Shown here one piece after another: positions 8,795-46,412 of a stretch of 64,000 nucleotides of DNA (its first letter is position 1; every line of letters begins with the position of its first letter). A program made the position numbers and the translations under genes. The DNA lies in NCBI GenBank assembly GCA_029582155.1, contig CM055901.1, positions 46,311,228-46,375,227 on the forward strand, given 5' to 3'. This DNA comes from Panopea generosa (lineage: Eukaryota > Mollusca > Bivalvia > Adapedonta > Hiatellidae). The notes below the pieces were generated by a model. The model worked only from the letters and a program-made list of their open reading frames with translations. It did not search any database and was not told the DNA's origin.

Positions 8795-9561
8795 ACATAT
8801 ATATGTAGTTAGTAAATGTAGTATATGTAGTTTATATATGTATCCTACAACTATGTAGTTTGTATATGTATTCTACATATATGTAGTTTGCATATAAATT
8901 CTACTTATATGTAGTTTATATATGTTTTCATGTAAATGTAGTATATGTAGTTTGTATATGTATTCTGCATTATGTAGTTTGTATATGTATCCTGCATATA
9001 TGTAGTTTGTATATGTATCCTACATATATGTAGTTTGTATATGTATCCTACATATATGTAGTTTGTACATGTATTCTACATATATGTAGTTCGTTCGTAC
9101 ATGTAATCTACATATATGTAGTGCGTACATGTACTCTACATATATGTAGTTAGTAAATGTAGTATATGTAGTTTGTACATGTATCCTACATATATGTAGA
9201 TTGTATATGTATCCAACATATATGTTGTTTGTATATGATTTTTACATATTTGTAGTTTGTATATGTATTCTACATTTATGTAGTTCATATATGTTTTCTA
9301 CATAAATGTAGTTAGTAAATGTAGTATATGTACTTTGTATATGTATTCTGTATATATGTAGTTTGTATATGTATTCTGCATATATGTAGTTTGTATATGT
9401 TTCCTGCATATATGTAGTTTGTTTATGTATCCTACATATATGTAGTTCATACATGTATCCTACATATATATAGTTTGTAGATGTATCCTACATATATTAA
9501 GTTTGTATATGTATTCTGCATATATGTATATGTATCCTGCAAATATGTTGTATATATATAT
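8795..9561. repeat. 28-bp palindromic minisatellite, segment 3
   Basis: This is the longest surviving stretch, about 27 units of TATATGTAGTTTGTATATGT plus a variable ATTCTACA or ATCCTACA. It is interrupted on the right by the 4.5-kb transposon. The minus-strand frame inside is a repeat translation rich in Thr, Tyr and Ile. Confidence 0.9.
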
Positions 9562-9734
9562 GAGCCGCTCTCCAGGAAAACCGGGCTTATTGACATAGTT
9601 ATGACGTCGAGGAAATCCCGGCCAAAGTAACGACGTCATAAAACACGTAGCATTTCGCTAACATAAACTTTGAATGTGTCTTTACAACTTGAATTTATAT
9701 TATAAATTTATCAAGGTTAACTCGGATTTTCTAG

Positions 9735-12700
9735 ATGGACAGTGATATAGAGGTAAGCAACTAAGTTTACATTTGTATTTTATAAGTAAATATTTAATTT
9801 TACATAAGGACTTTAATGTTAATAGTGTTTTACACTTTGCGATACTGGCCAGTAAATTGTCGATTCATTTCCACAATGTCATGTATGGTAAATTTGTTTG
9901 TTATAAAATAAAAATCTGCGATGTTATCTGATAAATTATAAACTAAGGAATTAATTCAATTTGAAATCGTGTAGCTATAAACTGTCTTTAAAATGACACT
10001 AATATATTTCAAAATGGCATTGAAATGATAATGAATCCTAGCACTCCCCCACCCACCAACAATGCAGTATGTAAAATGTACAAAATCGTGTTCATTAGAC
10101 CAAGTAGAAAGTTAAATCGTGCCATCGTTAAGATTTTAAAGGAAACATTTTTAATTGTAAATGTAATGTATATTAAAAAAAAAATGAAAAACGAAACTTC
10201 ATATGAATTTATGACGTGCCGTTACATCTGTACGTAATATCATCGTTAACGATTCCATTTTGACGTAATAGGCGCGGTGGTGTAGTGGTTATAGACATGG
10301 ACTATTGTCCAGGAAAGCCAAGTTCGGATCCCGTGAGACGCAAATTCTTCTTTTTTCTTTCTTTTTTTCTTTTCATATCCCAAACCCTAATTAGTTTTAT
10401 AATGACTCATTTTAAATGTTAATATGTGGCATTTGATTCCTAAATATAGATTATGAGTTTCGTTAGCACATCTAACATACTATCGATTTCGATTACATAT
10501 TGTATCAGTCTTTTATTTGTTTCTATTTTAGGAGCTAGAGAGTTTGTTCTCCGAACATTTTGGGAAAACACCAATTTCTACCCCATTTGCTTCACAGGCC
10601 AGTGACAGTGAGGACAATGAAGCCGTTCATGATGATGGTATCATTGACGAAAATGACCTGCAACTGAATGTTGATGAACGAGCAAGACACTTTCTAACAA
10701 TCGTATGTGAAGAAAGGGCGGATTCAGATAGTAACGATGGAAGAGAGCATGACCCTCAAGATGATAATGTAATGTTAGAGGGTGACCAAGATGTACAGAG
10801 AATTAGGCAATTTATGTTTACTGGGTGTGATTGCCATAACAACTGTCATACACATTTTAAAGAGCGAGATATTTACAAACACGTATTGGATGTGCGTGAA
10901 ATGGAGAAAAGTGACAAAGAAATGTATATTATGGCAACACTGGTTGATAATTCAGACAATGAATCAACAAAACGTGGAAAGAAAAGACAGAGAGTAAGGT
11001 ATGAGTATTTTTTTCTTGGAAAACATGTATGTAAGAACACATTCAAACTTGTTTTTGACATAGGTAAACACAGCCTTCAAAACATTATGACACACATCAG
11101 TTAACACGGCGCAACCACAAGAACACATGCAAATACAGGACGGAAACCAGCTAAGTCCCTTAAATTTGATGACATCAAATTGGTCGTTCAATTCATTTCA
11201 AATTACGCAGACGAATTTGGGATGCCACAGCCAGCTGCTCCAAGGGGACGAGACAATATACCTCCAATTTATTTGCCAAGTGATACAACAAAAAAATGTG
11301 TCCATGAAAAATATGTTGCTGGTTGTATTGAAAAAAGCCCAGAATGCCGTTCTGTAAAATATACCACATTCTGCAATGTATGGAATACATGTCTTTCTCA
11401 TGTAAAAATAGCGACACCTAGAGACGATGTATGTGCTTCTTGTGAGAAAATGAGAAAAGCCATAATGGATTCTGTTACTGAAGAAGAAAAGCTGGAATCT
11501 ACAAACAAAATGAAAGAACATATATTGCAGGCGCAAAAAGAAAGAGAAGTATATAACACATGTATTAAACTAGCCAAACAAGCCCATGGCATCTCTGAGG
11601 CAGAACAATATGTACACTATACGTTTGATTTCAGCCAAAATGTATGTTTACCCCATCACGCCAGGCAGATGGGCCCATTGTATTTTACAACGCTTAGAAA
11701 AATACAGATATTTGGATTTCGTCTGGACGGAGTTCCCCGGCAATTGAATTTCTTAATCGATGAAAACGAGACGACTGGAAAAGATGGAACATCAACTCAC
11801 GGTCCGAACTCTGTAATATCGATGATCGACTGGGCTTTACAGTCGCACGGCAGTGGCGAGACAACTTGTACTATACATGCAGACAACTGCCCAGGTAAAT
11901 TTTAGATTTTTTTCTTTTATGTCTGACTTATTTTTCATCATTACTATATAGCATGTTAAATTCATTTTGACTTATGCTTATTTATAAATGTATACTATGA
12001 TAATGAACTTGGAGTACAACGAACATATTGGCTAATGTATTACACTATTTCTATAACTACATGTTATTGGAAACACGCATGTAAATTTACTCTGTAAGTT
12101 TGCAAGGAAAAACACTATTATTTAATGATAAGTGAACTAACAAAATATGTAAATTTTAAAAAAATTATTATTTCACATACTTTAACTTCAGGTCAGAACA
12201 AAAACCAGTATGTACTTGGTTATTTTATGTGGCGAGTAATGACCGGAAAACACCAACGCATAGAGTACATGATGCAAGTGCCCGGCCATGCACGCTGTTT
12301 GGTGGACAGCGGCTTTGCCTCTTTGAAGAAACTCTATCGGCGTACTGACTGTGATACGATAAGTCAGCTTGAAGAGGTTGTCAACAAATCATCGTCAACA
12401 AATGTTGCGGTCCGGTATCCATCATGGCAATGGCGTGACTGGAAATCGTTTCTCGGACCAGTATTCCGCCCGTTACAAGGAATAAGGTATAGCTTACCTA
12501 AACATTTACTTCATGCACACAGTATGTGTTCCTAGTTATATACTGAGTAATGAGAAAACGTATTTCAATAGCATAAAACCAAAAAAGAAAAATACTTAAA
12601 CGCTTGTAAACACATAAACGTCGAATGTGTTAAATTTTAGTTACTTAGGTTACATGTTTTTATTAGTTTTTAGTGAAACACCATAATAGATTTGACAGAA

Positions 12701-13230
12701 AAATAAATGTCATTAGACTACTAACCTTTGTCGTTTAAAAAGTGAAGTTCGACAACTAAATTCAGGTATTATATTTTAAAAATATAGCTTTTATTTTATA
12801 GACCTTATTGAAAGAATTCCTTATGAAAAATAAAGACATGATTTATCACTTAAAAAATAGTGATATTATTTTATCAAAATAAATGCTGTTATGACGGATC
12901 TAAAATGGAAAATATAATTTGATTATTTCACCAGATTGCGTTTTTTTATTGTTTGAAATAATCTATTCATACAGGCAATACCAGTACTTCATGATGTCGT
13001 CTGCAGAGCCCGGTGTTGTGAAAGTAAAGAAAGCCTTCGACGCCAACGAGACTTCATTGAATTTATTAAAGTCTCGTGACTTCACCTTCGAAGAAGATGC
13101 TATGCCAGATATTATCGCCCGCGAGGGCTTGTCAAGGGAGCGTCAAGACTACTTCCATAGAGTTGTCAGACCGTTTGTTCGACCGGCGTACCAGGACATA
13201 ACGTGCCCAGCGCATATTAAAAAACTTTAA
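9735..13230 (+). CDS. transposase-like protein, 4 exons, one internal stop
   Basis: Proposed exons are 9735-9752, 10532-11894, 12192-12486 and 12975-13230, all with GT-AG introns. They join to 1932 bases (643 codons plus stop). The start gives MDSDIE, then an acidic N-terminus, a Cys/His cluster GCDCHNNC (residues 104-111), HANTGRKP, CASCEKM, FDFSQ, HADNCPG|QNKNQY across the second splice, PGHARCLVD, and a C-terminal RPFVRPAYQDITCP. The candidate acidic triad is D372, D457 and D499. From memory this pattern resembles the widespread DUF7869-type proteins; I could not check. A single TAA (11102-11104) breaks the long exon, with both sides in the same frame, so the copy is nearly intact. AATAAA occurs at 13285. 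Its position inside matched TIRs suggests it mobilises this element. Confidence 0.75.
10271..10342 (+). repeat. tRNA-like sequence or SINE head within intron 1 of the transposon gene
   Basis: TGGTGTAGTGGTTA (A box) and AGTTCGGATCC (B box) are spaced as in a tRNA of about 72 bases. The acceptor stem does not pair cleanly and no SINE body is recognisable, so it is probably a tRNA pseudogene or SINE head. Confidence 0.5.
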
Positions 13231-14014
13231 AAGTTTATCTAATTTATATGGCCAATGTCACCATGATCACTTGGTTTCGTTCAAAATAAATCAATATCAA
13301 TTAAAACTACATTAAACATGATGCATTTCAATATTTTAATTTATAAATAAACGTTTGAATTAAGTCAGTAACATACACATAACTACATCGAGTATATGAG
13401 CATCCTCTACGCGATTGGGTAGTTATGATCTGAATGTGAAATTTATGCAAGCCTCGTTTTCATTATAACTCACTTGGTAGTTTGAAAATATCGGGAATTG
13501 TACTTTTGATTTCAGACGTAAATGTTATCTACCTTCTGTGAGATAAGTGGGTAAATGTGAAGTGAAATTATGTTGAGCGTTGATGGTGTTTTGGTTATTA
13601 TAAACAGCAAAACCTATATGTATTGTCATCTTGTATGTTTATATATAACTACAGTTATGATCGTTGAAGAAATACAAGTACCGTTTTGATTATTTTTTAT
13701 TCACATCTCTGAATTTGTGCTTGATTCGATACGTTGTGCTAATTTCTTTTCAATCAGCAAGGTATACAGAATAACTAAGAGTTGTTATTGCCATTGCGGT
13801 ATTGTTTGCGCGCAAAATTACCTCGTTTTTTTCTGAAACATAACGTAAAACGTCGTACATTAACGTCGCACATTGACGTCATGCATTATTATACCTCTCG
13901 CAGGAAAACGTTTATATTAGAAAAAGTAATCGTCGTACAATAAAAATGAAAGCAGTTTTATGTTCAGGAAACTTTGTTTAATACGAAAATAAAAAAAAAC
14001 TAAATTGTCAAAAA
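13231..14014. other. 3' non-coding part of the transposon
   Basis: This is AT-rich DNA after the transposase stop. It has AATAAA at 13285-13290 and, near the end, three contiguous 13-mers AACGTCGTACATT, AACGTCGCACATT, GACGTCATGCATT (13849-13887). Subterminal repeats like these are often transposase-binding sites. That role is inference here. Confidence 0.55.
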
Positions 14015-14049
14015 ATGTCATTAAGCCCGGTTTTCCTGGAGAACGGCCC

Positions 14050-14175
14050 ATATGTATCCTACATATATGTAGTTTGTATATGTTTCCTACATATTATATG
14101 TTGTGCGTATATGTATCTTACATATATGTAGTTTGTATAATGTATTCTACATATTTGTAGTTTGTATATGTATCC
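14050..14175. repeat. 28-bp palindromic minisatellite, segment 4
   Basis: The array resumes directly after the transposon end (ATATGTATCCTACATATATG) and fades at about 14175. This confirms the transposon landed inside the array. Confidence 0.85.
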
Positions 14176-14617
14176 TGCACATAAGATAAGTGTATATGTT
14201 TGCCTGTGAAATGTTCTAGCAATAAAGCACCTTGCCATCTGTTAAGACAAACTTTTTATTCTAATCACCAATTTACCTAAAAGCTTTTATCATAATTGAG
14301 TTCAGACTAATCCAATTTTAAACAGTTAATATATAACTTGGCATTGAAAGTAATATAATTCTTATTAAAATTTTTCAAATTTTTAAACATTTTTCCCCAA
14401 ATATATCATACATATATTATATACTCATTGAATCCATATTGTCAAAACAATACCTATTTAAACATGCCAAACTTACATATTGAAAATGGATTTCCTAACT
14501 TTGGCTTTGTGCCTAGGTTAGACTAATATAGAGGTCCCACTTAAAATTGTAACATATTTTGTGACATATTAAATGAGTCACGTGATTTTATATTTATTTC
14601 AGTTTGATCCGTCATAT
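14176..14617. other. AT-rich non-coding DNA
   Basis: Nothing recognisable lies between two tandem arrays. Confidence 0.5.
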
Positions 14618-28856: not shown

Positions 28857-31800
28857 AAATGTTTTGGGCAAATGCTGAGCCTGAACCCACAACCTCAAGG
28901 TGAGAGGTAAGCAATCAGGACACAAACCAACAACCTCAAGGTGAGAGGTAAGCAATCAGGAGACAAACCCACAACCTCAAGGTGAGAGGTAAGCAATCAG
29001 GAGACAAACCCACAACCTCAAGGTGAGAGGTAAGCAATCAGGAGACAAACCCACAACCTCAAGGTGAGAGGTAAGCAATCAGGAGACAAACCCACAACCT
29101 CAAGGTGAGAGGTAAGCAATCAGGAGACAAACCAACAACCTCAAGGTGAGGGGTAAGCAATCAGGAGACAAACCCACAATCTCAAGGTGAGGGGTAAGCA
29201 ATCAGGAGACAAACCAACAACCTCAAGGTGAGGGGTAAGCAATCAGGAGACAAACCAACAACCTCAAGGTGAGGGGTAAGCAATCAGGACACAAACCCAC
29301 AACCTCAAGGTGAGGGGTAAGCAATCAGGAGACAAACCCACAACCTCAAGGTGAGGGGTAAGCAATCAGGACACAAACCCACAACCTCAAGGTGAGAGGT
29401 AAGCAATCAGGACACAAACCCCCAACCTCAAGGTGAGAGGTAAGCAATCAGGAGACAAACCAACAACCTCAAGGTGAGAGGTAAGCAATCAGGACACAAA
29501 CCCACAACCTCAAGGTGAGAGGTAAGCAATCAGGACACAAACCCACAACCTCAAGGTGAGGGGTAAGCAATCAGGAGACAAACCCACAACCTCAAGGTGA
29601 GAGGTAAGCAATCAGGACACAAACCCACAACCTCAAGGTGAGAGGTAAGCAATCAGGACACAAACCAACAACCTCAAGGTGAGGGGTAAGCAATCAGGAC
29701 ACAAACCCACAACCTCAAGGTGAGGGGTAAGCAATCAGGAGACAAACCCACAACCTCAAGGTGAGGGGTAAGCAATCAGGACACAAACCCACAACCTCAA
29801 GATGAGGGGTAAGCAATCAGGAGACAAACCAACAACCTCAAGGTGAGGGGTAAGCAATCAGGAGACAAACCAACAACCTCAAGGTGAGGGGTAAGCAATC
29901 AGGAGACAAACCAACAACCTCAAGGTGAGAGGTAAGCAATCAGGAGACAAACCAACAACCTCAAGGTGAGAGGTAAGCAATCAGGAGACAAACCAACAAC
30001 CTCAAGGTGAGGGGTAAGCAATCAGGAGACAAACCAACAACCTCAAGGTGAGAGGTAAGCAATCAGGAGACAAACCAACAACCTCAAGGTGAGAGGTAAG
30101 CAATCAGGAGACAAACCAACAACCTCAAGGTGAGGGGTAAGCAATCAGGAGACAAACCCACAACCTCAAGGTGAGGGGTAAGCAATCAGGAGACAAACCA
30201 ACAACCTCAAGATGAGAGGTAAGCAATCAGGAGACAAACCAACAACCTCAAGGTGAGAGGTAAGCAATCAGGAGACAAACCCACAACCTCAAGGTGAGGG
30301 GTAAGCAATCAGGAGACAAACCAACAACCTCAAGGTGAGGGGTAAGCAATCAGGAGACAAACCCACAACCTCAAGGTGAGGGGTAAGCAATCAGGACACA
30401 AACCCACAACCTCAAGGTGAGGGGTAAGCAATCTGGAGACAAACCCACAACCTCAAGTTGAGGGGTAAGCAATCAGGACACAAATCCACAACCTCAAGGT
30501 GAGAGGTAAGCAATCAGGACACAAACCCCCAACCTCAAGGTGAGAGGTAAGCAATCAGGAGACAAACCAACAACCTCAAGGTGAGAGGTAAGCAATCAGG
30601 ACACAAACCCACAACCTCAAGGTGAGAGGTAAGCAATCAGGACACAAACCCACAACCTCAAGGTGAGGGGTAAGCAATCAGGAGATAAACCCACAACCTC
30701 AAGGTGAGAGGTAAGCAATCAGGACACAAACCCACAACCTCAAGGTGAGAGGTAAGCAATCAGGAGACAAACCAACAACCTCAAGGTGAGGGGTAAGCAA
30801 TCAGGACACAAACCCACAACCTCAAGGTGAGGGGTAAGCAATCAGGAGACAAACCAACAACCTCAAGGTGAGGGGTAAGCAATCAGGACACAAACCCACA
30901 ACCTCAAGGTGAGAGGTAAGCAATCAGGAGACAAACCAACAACCTCAAGGTGAGGGGTAAGCAATCAGGAGACAAACCAACAACCTCAAGGTGAGGGGTA
31001 AGCAATCAGGAGACAAACCAACAACCTCAAGGTGAGAGGTAAGCAATCAGGAGACAAACCAACAACCTCAAGGTGAGAGGTAAGCAATCAGGAGACAAAC
31101 CAACAACCTCAAGGTGAGGGGTAAGCAATCAGGAGGCAAACCAACAACCTCAAGGTGAGAGGTAAGCAATCAGGAGACAAACCAACAACCTCAAGGTGAG
31201 AGGTAAGCAATCAGGAGACAAATCAACAACCTCAAGGTGAGGGGTAAGCAATCAGGAGACAAACCCACAACCTCAAGGTGAGGGGTAAGCAATCAGGAGA
31301 CAAACCAACAACCTCAAGATGAGAGGTAAGCAATCAGGAGACAAACCAACAACCTCAAGGTGAGAGGTAAGCAATCAGGAGACAAACCAACAACCTCAAG
31401 GTGAGAGGTAAGCAATCAGGAGACAAACCAACAACCTCAAGGTGAGGGGTAAGCAATCAGGAGACAAACTCACAACCTCAAGGTGAGAGGTAAGCAATCA
31501 GGAGACAAACCCACAACCTCAAGGTGAGGGGTAAGCAATCAGGAGACAAACCAACAACCTCAAGGTGAGAGGTAAGCAATCAGGAGACAAACCCACAACC
31601 TCAAGGTGAGAGGTAAGCAATCAGGAGACAAACCCACAACCTCAAGGTGAGAGGTAAGCAATCAGGACACAAACCCACAACCTCAAGGTGGGAGGTAAGC
31701 AATCAGGAGACAAACCCACAACCTCAAGGTGAGAGGTAAACAATCAGGAGACAAACCAACAACCTCAAGGTGAGGGGTAAGCAATCAGGACACAAACCCA

Positions 31801-32075
31801 CAACCTCAAGGTGAGAGGTAAGCAATCAGGAGACAAACCAACAACCTCAAGGTGAGATGTAAGCAATCAGGACACAAACCCACAACCTCAAGGTGAGGGG
31901 TAAGCAATCAGGAGACAAACCCCCAACCTCAAGGTGAGAGGTAAGCAATCAGGAGACAAACTCACAACCTCAAGGTGAGGGGTAAGCAATTAGGAGACAA
32001 ACCCACAACCTCAAGGTGAGAGGTAAGCAATCAGGAGACAGTGTCTCACACCACTTTGCAGTGGAGAATTTCAGA
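28857..32075 (-). repeat. 41-bp satellite, about 77 units, inside a split tRNA-like SINE head
   Basis: The unit on the plus strand is GGAGACAAACCCACAACCTC followed by AAGGTGAGAGGTAAGCAATCA, with an exact 41-base period. Variants are ACAC/AGAC, CCAAC/CCCAC and GAGAGG/GAGGGG. The left flank (GCTGAGCCTGAACCCACAAC, 28872) and right flank (AGTGTCTCACACCACTTTGC, 32039) look like the two halves of one minus-strand tRNA-like head. Each unit spans its anticodon-to-T-arm part. A 1107-bp higher-order period is visible. Confidence 0.95.
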
Positions 32076-36194: not shown

Positions 36195-39100
36195 CATGCA
36201 TTCAAAGATAAATGTGTTCCAGAGAACTTGGCAATGGCAGGTAAACCATCTTGACATGCAGAGCTGAAGAGAACTTGGCAATGACAGGTAAACCATCTTG
36301 ATGTGCAGTGTTCCAGAGAAAAATGGTAATGACAGGTAAACGATCTTGACACGCAGAGCTCCAGAAAACATGGCAATGACAGGTAAATCACATTGATGTG
36401 TAGTGTTCCAGAGAACTTGGCAATGACAAGTAAACCATCTTGATGTGCAGTGTTCCAGAGAACTTGGCAATGACAGGTAAACCATCTTGACGGGCAGAGC
36501 TCCAGAGAACTTGGCAATGACAGGTAAACCATCTTGACATGCTGAACTCCAGAGAACTTGGCAATGACAGGTAAACCATCTTGATGTGAAGTGTTCCAGA
36601 GAACTTGGCAATGACAGGTAAACCATCTTGACATGCTGAACTCCAGGGAACTTGGCAATGACAGGTAAACCATCTTGATGTGAAGTGTTCCAGAGAACTT
36701 GGCAATGACAGGTACACCATCTTTATGTGCAGTGTTCCAGAGAACTTGGCAATGACAAGTAAACCTTTTTTAATATGCAGTGCTCAAGAGAACTTGGCAA
36801 TGACAGGTAAACCACCTTGATGTGGAGTGCTCCAGAGAACTTGGCAATGACAAGTGAACCATTTTTAACATGCAGTTCTCCAGAGAACTTGGAAATGACA
36901 AGTTAACTATTTTTAACTGGAAGTGTTCCAGAGAACTTGGCAATGACAGGTAAACCCTTTTATTTACATGCAGTGTTCCAGATAACTTGGCAATGACAAG
37001 TGAACCATTTTAAACAGGCAGTGTTCCAGAGGACTTGACAATGACAGGTTTACCCTCTGTAAAGTGTTTCAGAGAGCTGGTAAACCTTCTTTTAAGTGTT
37101 AACACTATTTTTAAAGTGTTCCAGAAAGCATGACAATTGTAGGTAAACACTTTTAAAAGTGTACCAGAGAGCTTGACAATGACAGGTAAACCCTGTAAAG
37201 TGTTCCAGACAGTTTGGAAATAGCATGTGAATCATCTTAAAGTTGGGGTGTTCCAGAAAGCATGGCACTTGCAGCTAACCCCCCTTTTGCAGCAAGCTTG
37301 GTAATAGCAGGTAAACACCCTGTACGGTGTGGTGTTCCAGAGAGCTTGACAATGACATGTAAACCTTCCTTAAAGTGTTTCAAAGATCCTGGCAATGGCA
37401 GGTGAACCCTCTTTAAAGTGTTCCAGAGAGCTTGGCAATGACAGGTAAACCCTCTCTAAAGTGTTCAAGAGAGCTTGACAATGGCAGGTAAACCCTCTCT
37501 AAAGTGTTCAAAAGAGCTTTACAATGGCAGGTTAATCCTCTCTAAAATGTTCCAGAGAGCTTGACAATGGTAGGTAAACCCTCTCTTAAGTGTTCCAGAC
37601 CACATGACAATGGCAGGTAAACCAACTCAAAAGTGTTCAAGATAGCTTCACAATGGCAGGTAAACCCTCTCTAAAGTGTTCCAGAGAGCTTCACAATGGC
37701 AAATAAACCCTCTCTAAAGTGTTCCAGAGAGTTTGACAATGGCAGGTAAACCATTTCTAAAGTGTTCCAGAGAGCATGACAATGACAGGTAAACCCTCTC
37801 TCAAGTGTTCCAGAGAGCTTGGCAATGGCAGGTAAACCATCTCTCAAGTGTTCCAGAGAGCATGACAATGGCAGGTAAACACTCTTTTAAGTGTTCCAGA
37901 GAGCTTGGCAATGAAAGGTGAACCCTCTCTAAAGTGTTCCAGAGAGTTTGACAATGGTGGGTAAACCCTCTCTCAAGTGTTCAAGAGAGCTTGACAATGG
38001 CAGATAAACCATCTCTAAAGTGTATCAAAAACCATGACAATAGCAGGTAAACCCTCTCTCAAGTGTTCAAGAGAGCTTGACAATGGCAGGTGAACCCTCT
38101 CTAAAGTGTTCGAGAGAGCTTGACAATGGCAGGTAAACCTTCTTTCAAGTGTTCCAGAGAGCTTGACAATGGCAGGTAAACACTCTCTAAAGTGTTCCAG
38201 AGAGCATGACAATGGCAGGTTTACCATCTCTTAAGATTTCCAGAGAGCATGACAATGGCAGGTAAACACTCTCTCAAATGTTCCAGAACGCTTGACAATG
38301 GCAGTTGAACCCTCTCTAAAGTGTTCCAGAGAGTTTGACAATTGCAGGTAAACTCTCTCTAAAGTGTTCCAGAGAGCTTAACAATGGCAGGTAAACCATC
38401 TCTAAAGTGTTCCAGAGAGCTTGACAATGGCAGGTAAACGCTCTCTCAATTGTTCCAGAGAGTTTGACAATGGCAGGTAAACCCTCTCTCAAGTGTTCCA
38501 GAGAGTTTGACAATGGCAGGTAAACCATTTCTAAAGTGTTCCAGAGAGCATGACAATGACAGGTAAACCCTCTCTCAAGTGTTCCAGAGAGCTTGGCAAT
38601 GGCAGGTAAACCATCTCTCAAGTGTTCCAGAGAGCATGACAATGGCAGGTAAACACTCTTTTAAGTGTTCCAGAGAGCTTGACAATGAAAGGTGAACCCT
38701 CTCTAAAGTGTTCCAGAGAGTTTGACAATGGTGGGTAAACCCTCTCTCAAGTGTTCAAGAGAGCTTGACAATGGCAGATAAACCATCTCTAAAGTGTATC
38801 AAAAGCCATGACAATAGCAGGTAAACCCTCTCTCAAGTGTTCAAGAGAGCTTGACAATGGCAGGTGAACCCTCTCTAAAGTGTTCGAGAGAGCTTGACAA
38901 TGGCAGGTAAACCTTCTTTCAAGTGTTCCAGAGAGCTTGACAATGGCAGGTAAACACTCTCTAAAGTGTTCCAGAGAGCATGACAATGGCAGGTTTACCA
39001 TCTCTAAAGATTTCCAGAGAGCATGACAATGGCAGGTAAACACTCTCTCAAATGTTCCAGAACGCTTGACAATGGCAGTTGAACCCTCTCTAAAGTGTTC

Positions 39101-42100
39101 CAGAGAGTTTGACAATTGCAGGTAAACTCTCTCTAAAGTGTTCCAGAGAGCTTAACAATGGCAGGTAAACCATCTCTAAAGTGTTCCAGAGAGCTTGACA
39201 ATGGCAGGTAAACGCTCTCTCAATTGTTCCAGAGAGCTTGACAATGGCAGGTAAACCCTCTCTCAAGTGTTCCAATGAGCTTGACAATGGCAGGTAAATG
39301 ATCTCTAAAGTGTTCCAGAGAGCATGACAATGGCAGGTAAACCCTCTCTCAAGTGGTTCAGAGAGCTTGGCAATGGCAGGTAAACCCTCTTTAAAGTGTT
39401 CTAGAGAGCGTGACAATGGCAGTTAAACCCTCTCTAAATGTTCCAGAGAGCTTGACAATGGCAGGTAAACCCTCCGTTAAGTGTTAAAGTGAGCTTCACA
39501 ATGGTATGTAAACCCTCTGTAAAGTGTTCCAGAGAGCTTCACAATGGCAGTTAAACCCTCTCTAAAGAATTCCAGAGAGCATGACAATGGCAGGTAAACC
39601 ATCTTTAAAGTGTTCAAGAGAGCTTCATAATGGCAGGTGAACCCTCTCTAAAGTGTTCCTGAGAGCTTGACAATGGCAGGTAAACCCTCCGTTAAGTGTT
39701 AAAGTGAGCTTCACAATGGTATGCAAACCCTCTGTAAAGTGTTCCAGAGACCTTGACAAAGGCAGTTAAACACTCTCTAAAGTGTCACAGAGAGCATGAC
39801 AATGGCAGGTAAACCATCTCTAAAGTGTTCCAGAGAGCTTGGCAATGGTAGGTAAACCTTCTCTTAAGTGTTCCAGAGAGCTTGACAATGGCAGGCAAAC
39901 CCTTTCTAAAGTGTTCATGAGAGCTTGACAATGGCAGGTAAACCCTCTCTAAAGTGTTCAAGAGAGCTTGACAATGGCAGATGAACCTTCTCCAAAGTGT
40001 TCAAGAGAGCTTGACAATGGCAGGTAAACCCTCTCTAAAGTGTTCAAAAGAGCTTTACAATGGCAGTATAATCCTTTCTAAAATGTTCCAGAGAGCTTGA
40101 CAATGGTAGGGTAACCCTCTCTTAAGTGTTCCAGACAGCATGACAATGGCAGGTAAACCATCTCAAAAGTGTTCAAGAGAGCTTCACAATGGCAGGTTAA
40201 CCCTCTGTGAAGTGTTCTAGAGAGCTTCACAATGGCAGATAAACCCTCTCTAAAGTGTTCCAGAGAGCTTGACAATGACAGGTAAACCCTCTCTCAAGTG
40301 TTCCAGAGAGCTTGGCAATGGCAGGTAAACCATCTCTCAAGTGCTTAAGAGAGCATGACAATGGCAGTTAAACACTCTTTTAAGTGTTCCAGAGAGCTTG
40401 ACAATGGCAGGTGAACCCTCTCTAAAGTGTTCCAGAGAGTTTGACAATGGTGGGTAAACCCTCTCTCAAGTGTTCAAGAGAGCTTGACAATGGCAGATAA
40501 ACCATCTCTAAAGTGTATCAAAAACCATGACAATAGCAGGTAAACCCTCTCTCAAGTGTTCAAGAGAGCTTGACAATGGCAGGTGAACCCTCTCTAAAGT
40601 GTTCAAGAGAGCTTGACAATGGCAGGTAAACCTTCATTCAAGTGTTCAAGAGAGCTTGACAATGGTAGGTAAACCCTCTCTCAAGTGCTCCAGAGAGCTT
40701 GGCAATGGCAGGTTAACCATCTCTAGAGTTCCAGAAAGCATGACAATGGCAGGTAAACACTCTCTAAAGTGTTCCAGAGAGCTTAACAATGGCAGGTAAA
40801 CCATCTCTTAAGTGTTCCAGAGAGCTTGACAATGGCAGGTAAATGCTCTCTCAATTGTTCCAGAGAGCTTGACAAAGGCAGGTTAACCCTCTCTCAAGTG
40901 TTCCAGAGAGCTTGACAATGGCAGGTAAACGATCTCTTAAGTGTTCCAGAAAGCATGACAATGGCAGGTAAACCCTCTCTCAAGTGTTCCAGAGAGCTTG
41001 ACAATGGCAGGTAAACCCTCTCTTAAGTGTTCCAGAGAGCGTGACAATGGCAGTTAAACCCTCTCTAAATGTTCCAGAGAGCTTGACAATTGCAGGTAAA
41101 CCCTCTCTAAAGTGTTCCAGAGAGCGTGACAATGGCAGTTAAACCCTCTTTAAATGTTCCAGAGAGCTTGACAAAGGCAGGCAATCTATCTCTAAAGTGT
41201 TCAAGAGAATTTGACAATGGCAGGTGAAAAATCTGTAAAGTGTGCAAGAGGTCTTGACAATGGCAGATGAACCCTCTGTAAAGTGTTCCAGAGAGCATGA
41301 CAATGGCAGGTAAACCCTCTCTCAAGTGTTCAAGAGAGCTTGACAATGGCAGGTTAATCCCCTCTAAAGTGTTCAAGAGAGTTTGACAATGGTAGGTTGG
41401 TAGGTAAACCCTCTCTCAAGTGTTCCAGAGAGCTTGACAATGGCAGGTGGTAAACCATCTGTAAAGTGTGCAAGAGAGCTTGACAATGGCAGGTGAACCC
41501 TCTCTAAAGTGTTCCAGAGAGCTTGACAATGACAGGTGAACCCTCTGTAAAGTGTTCCAGAGAGCTTGACAATGGCAGGTAAATTCCCTCTAAAGTGTTC
41601 CGGACAGCTTGACAATGGCAGGTGGTGAACCATCTGTAAAGTGTTCCAGAGAGCTTGGCAATAGCAGGGAACTTTGCTAAAGTGTTCCAGAGAGCTTGGC
41701 AATGGCAGTTGAACCCTCCCTAAAGTGTTTTAGAGAGCTTGGCAATGGCAGGTTAACCCTCTCTTAAGTGTTCCAGAGAGCATGACAATTGCAGGTGAAC
41801 CCTCTCTAAAGTGTTCCAGAGAGCTTGACAATGGAAATTAAAACCCTCTCTGAAGTGTTCCAGAAAGCTTGACAATGGCAAGTAAACCCTCCCAGAAATG
41901 TTCCAGAAAGCTTCAAAATGGCAGGTAAACCCTCTGGCTCTCTAAAGTGTTCCAGAGAGCTTGACAATGGCAGGCAGTAAACCATCTGTAAAGTGTTCCA
42001 GAGAGCTTGACAATGGCAATTAAAACCCTTTCAAAAGTGTTCCAGAGAACTTGACAATTGCAGGCAAACCCTCTCTAAAGTGTGCCAGTGAGCTTGACAA

Positions 42101-45100
42101 TGGCAGGTTAACCTTCTCTAAAGTGTTCCAGAGAGCTAGACAGTGGCAGGTAAACCCTCCCTAAAGTGTTCCAGAGAGCTTGACAATTGCAGGTAAACCC
42201 TATCTAAAGTGCTCCAGAGAGCATGACAATGGCAGGTAAACCCTATCTAAAGTGTACCAGAGAGCATGACAATGGCAGGTAAACCCTCTCTCAGGTGTTC
42301 CAGAGAGCTTGACAGTGGCAGGTAAACCCTCCCTAAAGTGTTCCAGAGAGCATGACAATTAAAGGCAAACCCTTTCTAAAATGTTCCAGAGAGCTTGACA
42401 ACGGCAGGTAAACCATCTCTAAAGTGTTACAGAGAGTTTGACAATGGCAGGTGAAAAATCTGTAAAGTGTGCAAGAGGTCTTGACAATGGCAGGTGAACC
42501 CTCTGTAAAGTGTTCCAGAGAGCTTGAAAATGGCAGGTAAACACTCTCTCAAGTGTTCAAGAGAGCTTGACAATGGCAGGTTTATCCCCTCTAAAGTGTT
42601 CGAGAGAGCTTGACAATGGTAGGTTGGTAGGTAAACCCTCTCTCAAGTGTTCCAGAGAGCTTGACAATGGCATGTGGTAAACCATTTGTAAAGTGTGCAA
42701 GAGAGCTTGACAATGGCAGGTGAACCCTCTCTAAAGTGTTCCAGAGAGCTTGACAATGGCAGGTAAATTCCCTCTAAAGTGTTCCAGAGAGCTTGACAAT
42801 GGCAGGTGGTGAACCATCTGTAAAGTGTTCCAGAGAGCTTGGCAATAGCAGGGAACTTTGCTAAAGTGTCCCAGAGAGCTTGACAATGGCAGCTGAAACC
42901 TCCCTAAAGTGTTTTAGAGAGCTTGGCAACGGCAGGTGAACCCTCTCTTAAGTGTTCCAGAGAGCATGACAATTGCAGGTGAACCCTCTCTAAAGTGTTC
43001 CAGAGAGCTTGACAATGGAAATTTAAACCCTCTCTGAAGTGTTCCAGAAAGCTTGACAATGGCAAGTTAACCCTCCCAGAAGTGTTCCAGAAAGCTTCAA
43101 AATGGCAGGTAAACCCTCTAGCTCTCTAAAGTGTTCCAGAGAGCTTGACAATGGCAGGCAGTAAACCATCTGTAAAGTGTTCCAGAGAGCTTGACAATGG
43201 CAATTAAAACCCTCTCAAAAGTGTTCCAGAGAGCTTGACAATTACAGGCAAACCCTCTCTAAAGTGTGCCAGTGAGCTTGACAATGGCAGGTAAACCTTC
43301 TCTAAAGTGTTCCAGAGAGCTAGACAGTGGCAGGTAAACCCTCCCTAAAGTGTTCCAGAGAGCTTGACAATTGCAGGTAAACCCTATCTAAAGTGCTCCA
43401 GAGAGCATGACAATGGCAGGTAAACCCTATCTAAAGTGTACCATAGAGCATGACAATGGCAGGTAAACCCTCTCTCAAGTGTTCCAGAGAGCTTGACAGT
43501 GGCAGGTAAACCCTCCCTAAAGTGTTCCAGAGAGCTTGACAATTGCAGGCAAACCCTTTCTAAAATGTTCAAGAGAGCTTGACAATGGCAGGTAAACCCC
43601 ATCTAAAGTGTACCAGAGAACATGACAATGGCAGGTTAACCCTCTCTCAAGTGTTCCAGAAAGCTTGACAATGGCAGGTAAACCCTCTCTAAAGTGTGCC
43701 AGTGAGCTTGACAATTGCAGGCAAACCTTCTCTAAAGTGTTCCAGAGAGCTTGACAGTGGCAGTTGAACCCTCTCTAAAGTGTTCCAGAGAACTTGACAA
43801 TTGCAGGCAAACTCTCTCTAAAGTGTTCAAGAGAGATTGACAATGGCAGGTAAACCCCATCTAAAGTGTACCAGAGAACATGACAATGGCAGGTTAACCC
43901 TCTCTAAAGTGTTCCAGAAAGCTTGACAATGGCAGGTAAACCCTCTCTAAAGTGTGCCAGAGAGCATGACAATTGAAGGCAAACCCTTTCTAAAATGTTC
44001 CAGAGAGCTTGACAACGGCAGGTAAATCATCTCTAAAGTGTTCCAGAGAGTTTGCCAATGGCAGGTGAAAAATCTGTAAAGTGTGCAAGAGAGCTTGACA
44101 ATGGCAGGTGAACCCTCTGTAAAGTGTTCCAGAGAGCTTGAAAATGGCAGGTAAACACTCTCTCAAGTGTTCAAGAGAGCTTGACAATGGCAGGTTAATC
44201 CCCTCTAAAGTGTTTGAGAGAGCTTGACAATGGTAGGTTGGTAGGTAAACCCTCTCTCAAGTGTTCCAGAGAGCTTGACAATGGCATGTGGTAAACCATT
44301 TGTAAAGTGTGCAAGAGAGCTTGACAATGGCAGGTGAACCCTCTCTAAAGTGTTCCAGAGAGCTTGACAATGGCAGGTAAATTCCCTCTAAAGTGTTCCA
44401 GAGAGCTTGACAATGGCAGGTGGTGAACCATCTGTAAAGTGTTCCAGAGAGCTTGGCAATAGCAGGGAACTTTGCTAAAGTGTCCCAGAGAGCTTGACAA
44501 TGGCAGCTGAAACCTCCCTAAAGTGTTTTAGAGAGCTTGGCAACGGCAGGTGAACCCTCTCTTAAGTGTTCCAGAGAGCATGACAATTGCAGGTGAACCC
44601 TCTCTAAAGTGTTCCAGAGAGCTTGACAATGGAAATTTAAACCCTCTCTGAAGTGTTCCAGAAAGCTTGACAATGGCAAGTTAACCCTCCCAGAAGTGTT
44701 CCAGAAAGCTTCAAAATTGCAGGTAAACCCTCTGGCTCTCTAAAGTGTTCCAGAGAGCTTGACAATGGCAGGCAGTAAACCATCTGTAAAGTGTTCCAGA
44801 GAGCTTGACAATGGCAATTAAAACCCTCTCAAAAGTGTTCCAGAGAGCTTGACAATTGCAGGCAAACCCTCTCTAAAGTGTGCCAGTGAGCTTGACAATG
44901 GCAGGTAAACCTTCTCTAAAGTGTTCCAGAGAGCTAGACAGTGGCAGGTAAACCCTCCCTAAAGTGTTCCAGAGAGCTTGACAATTGCAGGTAAACCCTA
45001 TCTAAAGTGCTCCAGAGAGCATGACAATGGCAGGTAAACCCTATCTAAAGTGTACCAGAGAGCATGACAATGGCAGGTAAACCCTCTCTAAAGTGTTCCA

Positions 45101-46412
45101 GAGAGCTTGACAGTGGCAGGTAAACCCTCCCTAAAGTGTTCCTGAGAGCTTGACAATTGCAGGCAAACCCTTTCTAAAATGTTCAAGAGAGCTTGACAAT
45201 GGCAGGTAAACCCCATCTAAAGTGTACCAGAGAGCATGACAATGGCAGGTAAACCCTCTCTCAAGTGTTCCAGAGAGCTTGACAGTGGCAGGTAAACCCT
45301 CCCTAAAGTGTTCCAGAGAGCTTGACAATTGCAGGCAAACCCTTTCTAAAATGTTCAAGAGAGCTTGACAATGGCAGGTGAACCCCATCTAAAGTGTACC
45401 AGAGAGCATGACAATGGCAGGTTAACCCTCTCTCAAGTGTTCCAGAAAGCTTGACAATGGCAGGTAAACCCTCTCTAAAGTGTGCCAGTGAGCTTGACAA
45501 TTGCAGGCAAACCTTCTTTAAAGTGTTCCAGAGAGCTTGACAGTGGCAGTTAAACCCTCTCTAAAGTGTTCCAGAGAGCTTGACAATTGCAGGCAAACTC
45601 TCTCTAAAGTGTTCAAGAGAGCTTGACAATGGCAGGTAAACCCCATCTAAAGTGTACCAGAGAACATGATAATGGCATGTTAACCCTCTCTAAAGTGTTC
45701 CAGAAAGCTTGACAATGGCAGGTAAACCCTCTCTAAAGTGTGCCAGTGAGCATGACAATTACAGGCAAACCCTCTCTAAAGTGTGCCAGTGAGCTTGACA
45801 ATGGCAGGTAAACTTTCTCTAAAATGTACCAGAGAGCTTGACAGTGGCAGGTAAACCCTCCCTAAAGTGTTCCAGAGAGCTTGACAATTGCAAGCAAACC
45901 CTCTCTAAAGAGTGCCAGTGAGCTTGACAATGGCATGTAAGGTTCTCTAAAGTGTTCAAGAGAGTTTGACAGCTGCAGGTAAACCATCCCTTAAGTGTTC
46001 CAGAGAGCTTGACAATTGCAGGCAAACCCTCTCTAAATTGTGCCAGTGTGCTTGACAATAGCAGATAAACCTTCTTTAAAGTGTTCCAGAAAGCTTGACA
46101 GTGGCAGGTAAACCCTCCCTAAAGTGTTCCAGAGAGCTTGACAATTGCAGGCAAACCCTTTCTAAAATGTTCCAGAGAGCTTGACAATGGCAGGTAAACC
46201 CCATCTAAAGTGTTCCAGAGAGCTTGACAATTGCCGGCAAACCCTCTCTAAAGTGTTCAAGAGAGCTTGACAATGGCAGGTAAACCCTGTCTAAAGTGTA
46301 CCAAAGAGCATGACAATGGCAGGTAAACCCTATCTAAAGTGTTCCAGAGAGCTTGACAATGGCAGGTAAACCATCTCTAAAGTGTTCCAGAGAGTTTGAC
46401 AATGACTACCTG
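36195..46412. repeat. 10.2-kb satellite of 47-bp then 43-bp monomers
   Basis: The left part (36195-36800) has 47-base units: CCATCTTGATGTGCAGTGTT, CCAGAGAACTTGGCAATGAC, AGGTAAA. The rest has 43-base units: CCCTCTCTAAAGTGTTCCAG, AGAGCTTGACAATGGCAGGT, AAA. That is roughly 235 monomers. Nested higher-order repeats are visible, with periods of 774 bases (18 monomers), 1614 bases and 172 bases (4 monomers). The many minus-strand frames (with SLEHFREGLPAIVKLSGTL-like phrases) arise because 43 is not a multiple of 3 and the unit lacks stops. They are not genes. Confidence 0.97.

Follow-up and report, generated by a model that had tools for sequence, protein, structure and literature searches.

A DUF7869 protein as the probable transposase of a young transposon family in Panopea generosa

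Introduction

Is a gene for a domain of unknown function, DUF7869, the transposase of the element that carries it, and is that element of a known kind? The question is raised by contig CM055901.1 of the bivalve Panopea generosa, where an element with terminal inverted repeats (TIRs) spans positions 9562-14049 of the 64,000 nucleotides analyzed here (the window, to which all coordinates refer). A first-pass annotation had described it as a nearly intact transposon with a possibly undescribed transposase. Our analysis indicates that it is very likely a stop-disabled copy of a recently active cut-and-paste family of 4.1-4.5 kb, and that the 643-residue DUF7869 protein is very probably the transposase of this family.

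Results

The element and its copies in the host genome

The ends of the element are the following.

9558..9561, no strand: left target duplication ATAT (length of 4 from the genome-wide end pairs and the empty-site comparison)
9562..9596, plus strand: left 35-bp TIR (GAGCCGCTCTCCAGG...)
14015..14049, minus strand: right 35-bp TIR
14050..14053, no strand: right target duplication ATAT (length of 4 from the same two sources)

The two TIRs match at 32 of their 35 positions, and ATAT stands directly outside both ends. In the exact end patterns the termini read GAG at one end and CCC or CTC at the other. The host site of this copy is a 28-bp minisatellite, with arrays at 8822-9535 and 14050-14183. 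When the flanks are rejoined minus one ATAT, the 28-bp pattern continues with some irregularities. The pattern is equally compatible with the removal of 4 bases and of 6, and the window site by itself therefore leaves the length of the duplication ambiguous.

The host genome (1.47 Gb in 39 contigs) was searched with the first 79 bp of the element as query. This gave 106 first-look candidates; the 40 that were scored, the window included, all match at 99-100%. Twenty further copies were examined out of 39 chosen among the best matches to these 79 bp, a choice by one end that biases the examined copies toward young ones. Each of the 20 carries the gene between two TIRs that lie 4.1-4.5 kb apart. 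The 21 copies (window plus 20) show a mean pairwise identity of 97.5% (range 95.2-99.8) and diverge by 0.7-3.6% from the column majority, the window copy by 1.2%. Genome-wide, the exact end patterns match 49 times on the left and 62 times on the right, which are lower bounds as exact matches were required, while the reversed patterns (read backwards) match 0 times. Left and right ends pair up 33 times at distances of 4.1-5.4 kb. The first-pass reading of a TIR transposon with these limits and 35-bp TIRs is thus borne out, and the further copies bounded by the same TIR, for which it had proposed a search, exist and carry the gene.

The 643-codon frame is open in four of the other 20 copies (L037, L041, L044 and L050), and L039 has an open frame of 637 codons. 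In the remaining 15, as in the window copy, it is interrupted or frameshifted, in L046 only near the end. Measured against the column majority, dN/dS is about 0.51. The family is young, present in many copies and very probably recently active.

A four-exon gene with a stop in the window copy

The gene is composed of four predicted exons.

9735..9752, plus strand: exon 1, start codon, 6 codons
10532..11894, plus strand: exon 2, Cys clusters, D372 and D457
12192..12486, plus strand: exon 3, D499
12975..13230, plus strand: exon 4, stop codon included
11102..11104, plus strand: in-frame TAA at codon 197, in the window copy only among 21

The exons join in phase into a frame of 643 residue positions. 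The first-pass annotation was right on phase and length; it overlooked the TAA at codon 197, by which the frame of the window copy is broken, and its term "nearly intact" has to be withdrawn. Across the 21 aligned copies codon 197 is K in 18, T in two and a stop in the window alone. An intron spanning the stop, placed by hand with a splice from about 10998 to about 11121, was rejected because the same frame is found on both sides of the TAA. The K in 18 of 21 copies also spoke against it, as did the unbroken alignment of this stretch with the paralogous families. The GT/AG borders of introns 1 and 2 are conserved throughout the 21 copies; at intron 3 all 21 retain the donor and 20 the acceptor. 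Among the reading frames of the element the DUF7869 gene is the sole gene recognized, Pfam having been run on the spliced protein only.

Domain and conserved residues of the protein

The domain and the residues considered below are located as follows.

11795..13023, plus strand: DUF7869 match, residues 428-575, exons 2-4 (coordinates derived from the exon table)
10826..10846, plus strand: N-terminal Cys cluster C105, C107, C111 (aligned with the paralogous families)
11432..11443, plus strand: second Cys pair C307, C310 (P..D.C..C)
11627..11629, plus strand: D372, putative first catalytic Asp
11882..11884, plus strand: D457, putative second catalytic Asp
12305..12307, plus strand: D499, putative third catalytic Asp

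A search with hmmscan against Pfam placed DUF7869 (PF25273) at residues 428-575 with E 2.2e-16 and 60.4 bits, above the gathering cut-off of 26. This agrees with the DUF7869-like gene of the first-pass annotation, and the motifs that it had listed (FDFSQ, HADNCPGQNKN and PGHARCLVD, with D372, D457 and D499) are present. Three other Pfam families matched the window protein below their own cut-offs, the best being DUF5814 (E 0.043). The Pfam entry holds no function, whereas the present data connect the domain with TIRs, with a duplication of 4 bp and with residues of a putative active site.

D372 is kept in 20 of the 21 copies (one gap), and D457 and D499 are kept in all of them. The host genome contains 135 DUF7869 matches at E ≤0.001 (150 of 224 candidates scored), counted exon by exon and belonging partly to the window family and partly to others. 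From eleven paralogous loci (L051-L061) we aligned ten sequences, leaving out L059, which is broken into short pieces. In the profile of this alignment (A1) the invariant positions include D378, D420, E344, E418, H423 and E427, and D301 is conserved to at least 90%. Its motifs are FDLQ..L..P, YSD[NGA]C..QN[KR]N and GHT..E.DS.H..IE. Comparison of the spliced L041 protein with A1 by hhalign gave E 1.2e-9 and a probability of 96.4 over 447 columns at 19% identity; FDFSQ, HADNCPGQNKN and VDSGF fall on the three A1 motifs with the three Asp aligned. When part of the window exon 2 was aligned by MAFFT, D372 and D457 again fell in the Asp columns of A1. In the window family E418, H423 and E427 of the profile have no counterpart, and since E418 and E427 are not kept, D499 is singled out as the third acid. 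D372, D457 and D499 may therefore be read as a DDD active site. By inspection, the region would follow an RNase-H-like order, with a strand ending in D, two strands, a helix, a strand ending in D, a helix, a strand and a D-bearing helix.

Two of the loci in A1 (L051:3-3593 and L052:2-3205) encode DUF7869 proteins with very long open frames, in which the N-terminal half consists of acidic low-complexity repeats and precedes the transposase-like part. The paralogue at L054, also in A1, has 576 residues.

Several points weigh against this picture. The value of 0.51 for dN/dS corresponds to mild constraint, and it rises to 0.75 for differences confined to a single copy. The three introns of the gene model were predicted from genomic sequence. 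E419, which corresponds to E344 of the profile and falls in the same MAFFT column, is conserved as well as the Asp triad; the putative RNase-H core and DDD site are both proposed from residue conservation.

Other searches gave no relatives. In the Protein Data Bank no chain matched the profile up to E 5, and the single sequence gave two hits to a ribosomal protein at chance level only (E 0.11 and 0.14). NCBIfam gave no match for two proteins searched, and the best value in PHROGs for three proteins was E 0.0089. In IMG/VR the spliced protein had 2 pattern matches and A1 had 18, and A1 had 15 in GTDB contigs; none was confirmed in these scans, which combined short peptide patterns with tblastn at E 1e-3 and which distant relatives may escape.

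Target-site duplication and site preference

The 4-mers flanking the 33 end pairs are identical in 30 of them, and identical 3-mers or 5-mers occur at 0 of the 33. An ATCT/ATCT pair on contig C22 is compatible with 4 bp alone, and AAAT/AAAT flanks two more copies, L039 and C8:38698422. The first-pass annotation had also proposed a comparison with empty sites, which proved possible for copy L031. This copy sits within another genomic repeat, and its joined flanks were matched across the junction by 40 scored of 190 candidates. The flanks with a single ATAT align gaplessly over 236 bp with four loci, L084-L087 (98.7, 97.9, 97.9 and 92.4%); a fifth empty locus, L088, which was taken one base short, aligns with one gap at 91.5%.

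Not all of the counts favor 4 bp. A length of 2 bp matches at 32 of the 33 pairs and one of 6 bp at 22, and lengths of 2, 4 and 6 are indistinguishable in AT repeats; so many lengths match because the sites lie nearly always inside such a repeat. Three of the 33 pairs are unequal (AGAT/ATAT once and AAAT/ATAT twice), as are the flanks of two of the 20 examined copies (AATT/ATAT and AAAT/ATAT). An empty site was also sought for L039, and the search found only its own two flanks and relatives at 70-83%. The length thus depends on a few non-ATAT sites and on a single copy's empty site. Lengths of 2 and 6 bp are ruled out by ATCT, by AAAT, by the ATGT of a second DUF7869 family (see below) and by the L031 empty site, all of which fit 4 bp only. 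The target duplication is 4 bp.

The flanking 4-mers are of the AWWT type in 104 of 111 cases, and seven depart from it. An AT run of at least 10 bp is present at 16 of the 21 insertion sites. For comparison, such runs contain 21 of the 510 ATAT 4-mers that the window has beyond the limits of the element, and 43 of the 463 in the copies' outer flanks. These data show that (AT)n runs are strongly preferred as targets; expansion of the AT repeat once the element was in place could have contributed to the excess.

A second DUF7869 family with different ends

A second young DUF7869 family of about 5 kb has TIRs with the sequence CGTCGTTGCGAAGT (L062:375-5429, L063 and L053). L062 and L063 are 98.5% alike across 5.05 kb and both terminate in CGTCGTTGCGAAGTCAAAACC; the ends of the family are CGTCG. 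Its exact end patterns match 13 times on the left and 13 times on the right and form 11 pairs. The flanking 4-mers are identical in all 11 (eight ATAT and one each of ATGT, ATAA and TATT), and a twelfth copy outside this count has AAAT/AAAT. By eye, these sites do not show long AT runs like those at the insertions of the window family. We also traced the ends of a third DUF7869 family (L089, L090 and L091); neither a TIR nor the right end could be located, so that it is uninformative on the duplication.

Because a DUF7869 gene lies inside a family of TIR transposons, DUF7869 becomes a transposase domain by association. Alternatively, the gene might be a passenger of host or other origin, carried between the TIRs and mobilized by a transposase encoded elsewhere. 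The catalytic role of the protein is putative, and its Cys clusters could fit another kind of DNA-binding protein. However, it is the only gene recognized among the reading frames of the element, with Pfam applied to the spliced protein; the three Asp are kept across families, and the second family combines unlike TIRs with a gene of this domain and a duplication that is likewise 4 bp. Two families that differ in their ends but share this domain and the length of the duplication suggest that the DUF7869 protein is what causes it in both, and we consider a passenger gene very improbable.

Relation to named superfamilies

Sola2, a group of the Sola superfamily, has termini of the type GRG...CYC. 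The GAG and CCC or CTC of the window family would fit this type, and the second family ends in CGTCG and not in GRG. The superfamily was reportedly described by Bao et al. in 2009. According to the available text on Sola, its members have DDD transposases and 4-bp duplications and are mostly 2-9 kb long (PMC10741241). The available text on social amoebae gives AT-rich 4-bp duplications for Sola2, AWWT in one group and ATAT/AAAT/ATTT in another (PMC3627910). Repbase lists Sola with the groups Sola1-3 (PMC4455052, in part), and bivalves contain Sola1 and Sola2, as stated in a portion of PMC10294476. The window family shares with these descriptions, as far as the passages go, a 4-bp and mostly AWWT duplication, three Asp as putative catalytic residues and a TIR element of 4-5 kb. 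Since the duplication and the three conserved Asp match published Sola/Sola2 marks (PMC3627910 and PMC10741241, both in part), the element is probably a member of the Sola superfamily, group Sola2. The assignment was made by published descriptions, and as a difference the strong (AT)n preference is absent from the Sola2 passages. The "possibly undescribed" of the first-pass annotation is not supported; this looks like a new family within an already named group and not like a new kind of transposon.

It is also conceivable, if rather unlikely, that the DUF7869 elements form a separate superfamily, distinct from those already named, with Sola2-like duplications and ends acquired by convergence. 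No named Pfam transposase family reaches its cut-off, DUF7869 is not mentioned in the open-licence PMC text that was searched, and the CGTCG ends of the second family are unlike GRG. Yet Pfam may simply carry no entry named Sola, and the AWWT duplication of 4 bp, the three conserved Asp and the report of Sola2 from bivalves (in the portions of the three papers cited above) speak for Sola. A related and equally doubtful view is that DUF7869 proteins are DDD transposases of a superfamily unnamed in Repbase and filed as host proteins of unknown function in gene sets, and that they duplicate 4 bp and target AT microsatellites in this lineage.

The duplication bears on other named superfamilies as well. 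PiggyBac and Kolobok duplicate TTAA, and Academ and Ginger are said to have duplications of about 4 bp. Tc1/mariner duplicates TA, as the relevant passage of PMC10741241 states. Neither TA nor TTAA agrees with the ATCT and AAAT found here or with the ATGT, TATT and ATAA of the second family, and Tc1/mariner, piggyBac and Kolobok were rejected. Academ, Ginger or Banshee types are a further candidate on account of their short duplications, those of Banshee being 4 or 15 bp (PMC10045372, in part). However, the window protein matched no integrase-type Pfam family (e.g. rve) at E ≤1, and Banshee starts with TGT, according to the same passage, where our element starts with GAG. A helicase or nuclease partner was not noticed either, although no search was aimed at one. 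We regard such an affiliation as highly unlikely.

In plants, the passages on Micron, MuTAnT and Ac-mMITE also describe insertion into (TA)n microsatellites (PMC8449440). MuTAnT and Ac-mMITE differ in being Mutator-like, with no link to DUF7869 in those passages; Ac-mMITE has 9/10-bp duplications and no coding partner was found for it (PMC8449440, in part).

Other features of the window

Intron 1 contains a tRNA-like stretch at 10264-10345 with an A-box-like TGGTGTAGTGGTTA and a B-box-like GTTCGGATCCC, for which ARAGORN and Rfam made no call. A 30-mer from it has 28 exact genomic matches, and 27 of these lie no more than 6 kb from an element end. Positions 10290-10319 of this stretch and positions 9553-9582 at the TIR have TCCAGGAAA(A/G)CC in common and are 70% alike over 30 nt. 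This likeness may be chance or may point to a second, end-like binding site.

A very long minisatellite array of 41 bp x 77 occupies 28884-32040, and a minisatellite of 43/86/129 bp extends over 10 kb at 36214-46406. Part of this array sequence reads as repetitive open frames.

Discussion

We propose that the DUF7869 transposase would bind the 35-bp ends by its Cys-rich parts, with the Cys clusters binding zinc and helping in end binding. It would excise the element and join it to target DNA through the putative DDD site formed by D372, D457 and D499. Strand joining with a 4-bp stagger at AT-rich target sites, mostly AWWT, would give rise to the 4-bp duplication. The window copy would move only if another copy, one of those whose frame is open, supplied the transposase.

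With this, DUF7869, a domain of unknown function, gains a testable role. A DUF7869 protein encoded between TIRs that are flanked by 4-bp duplications is very probably a transposase, and its gene should be left out of host gene counts. If the match to Sola is confirmed, a Pfam entry would be linked to a named transposon superfamily. Since the family is young and present in many copies, some of them with open frames, both the chemistry of its transposition and its choice of AT microsatellites are directly testable.

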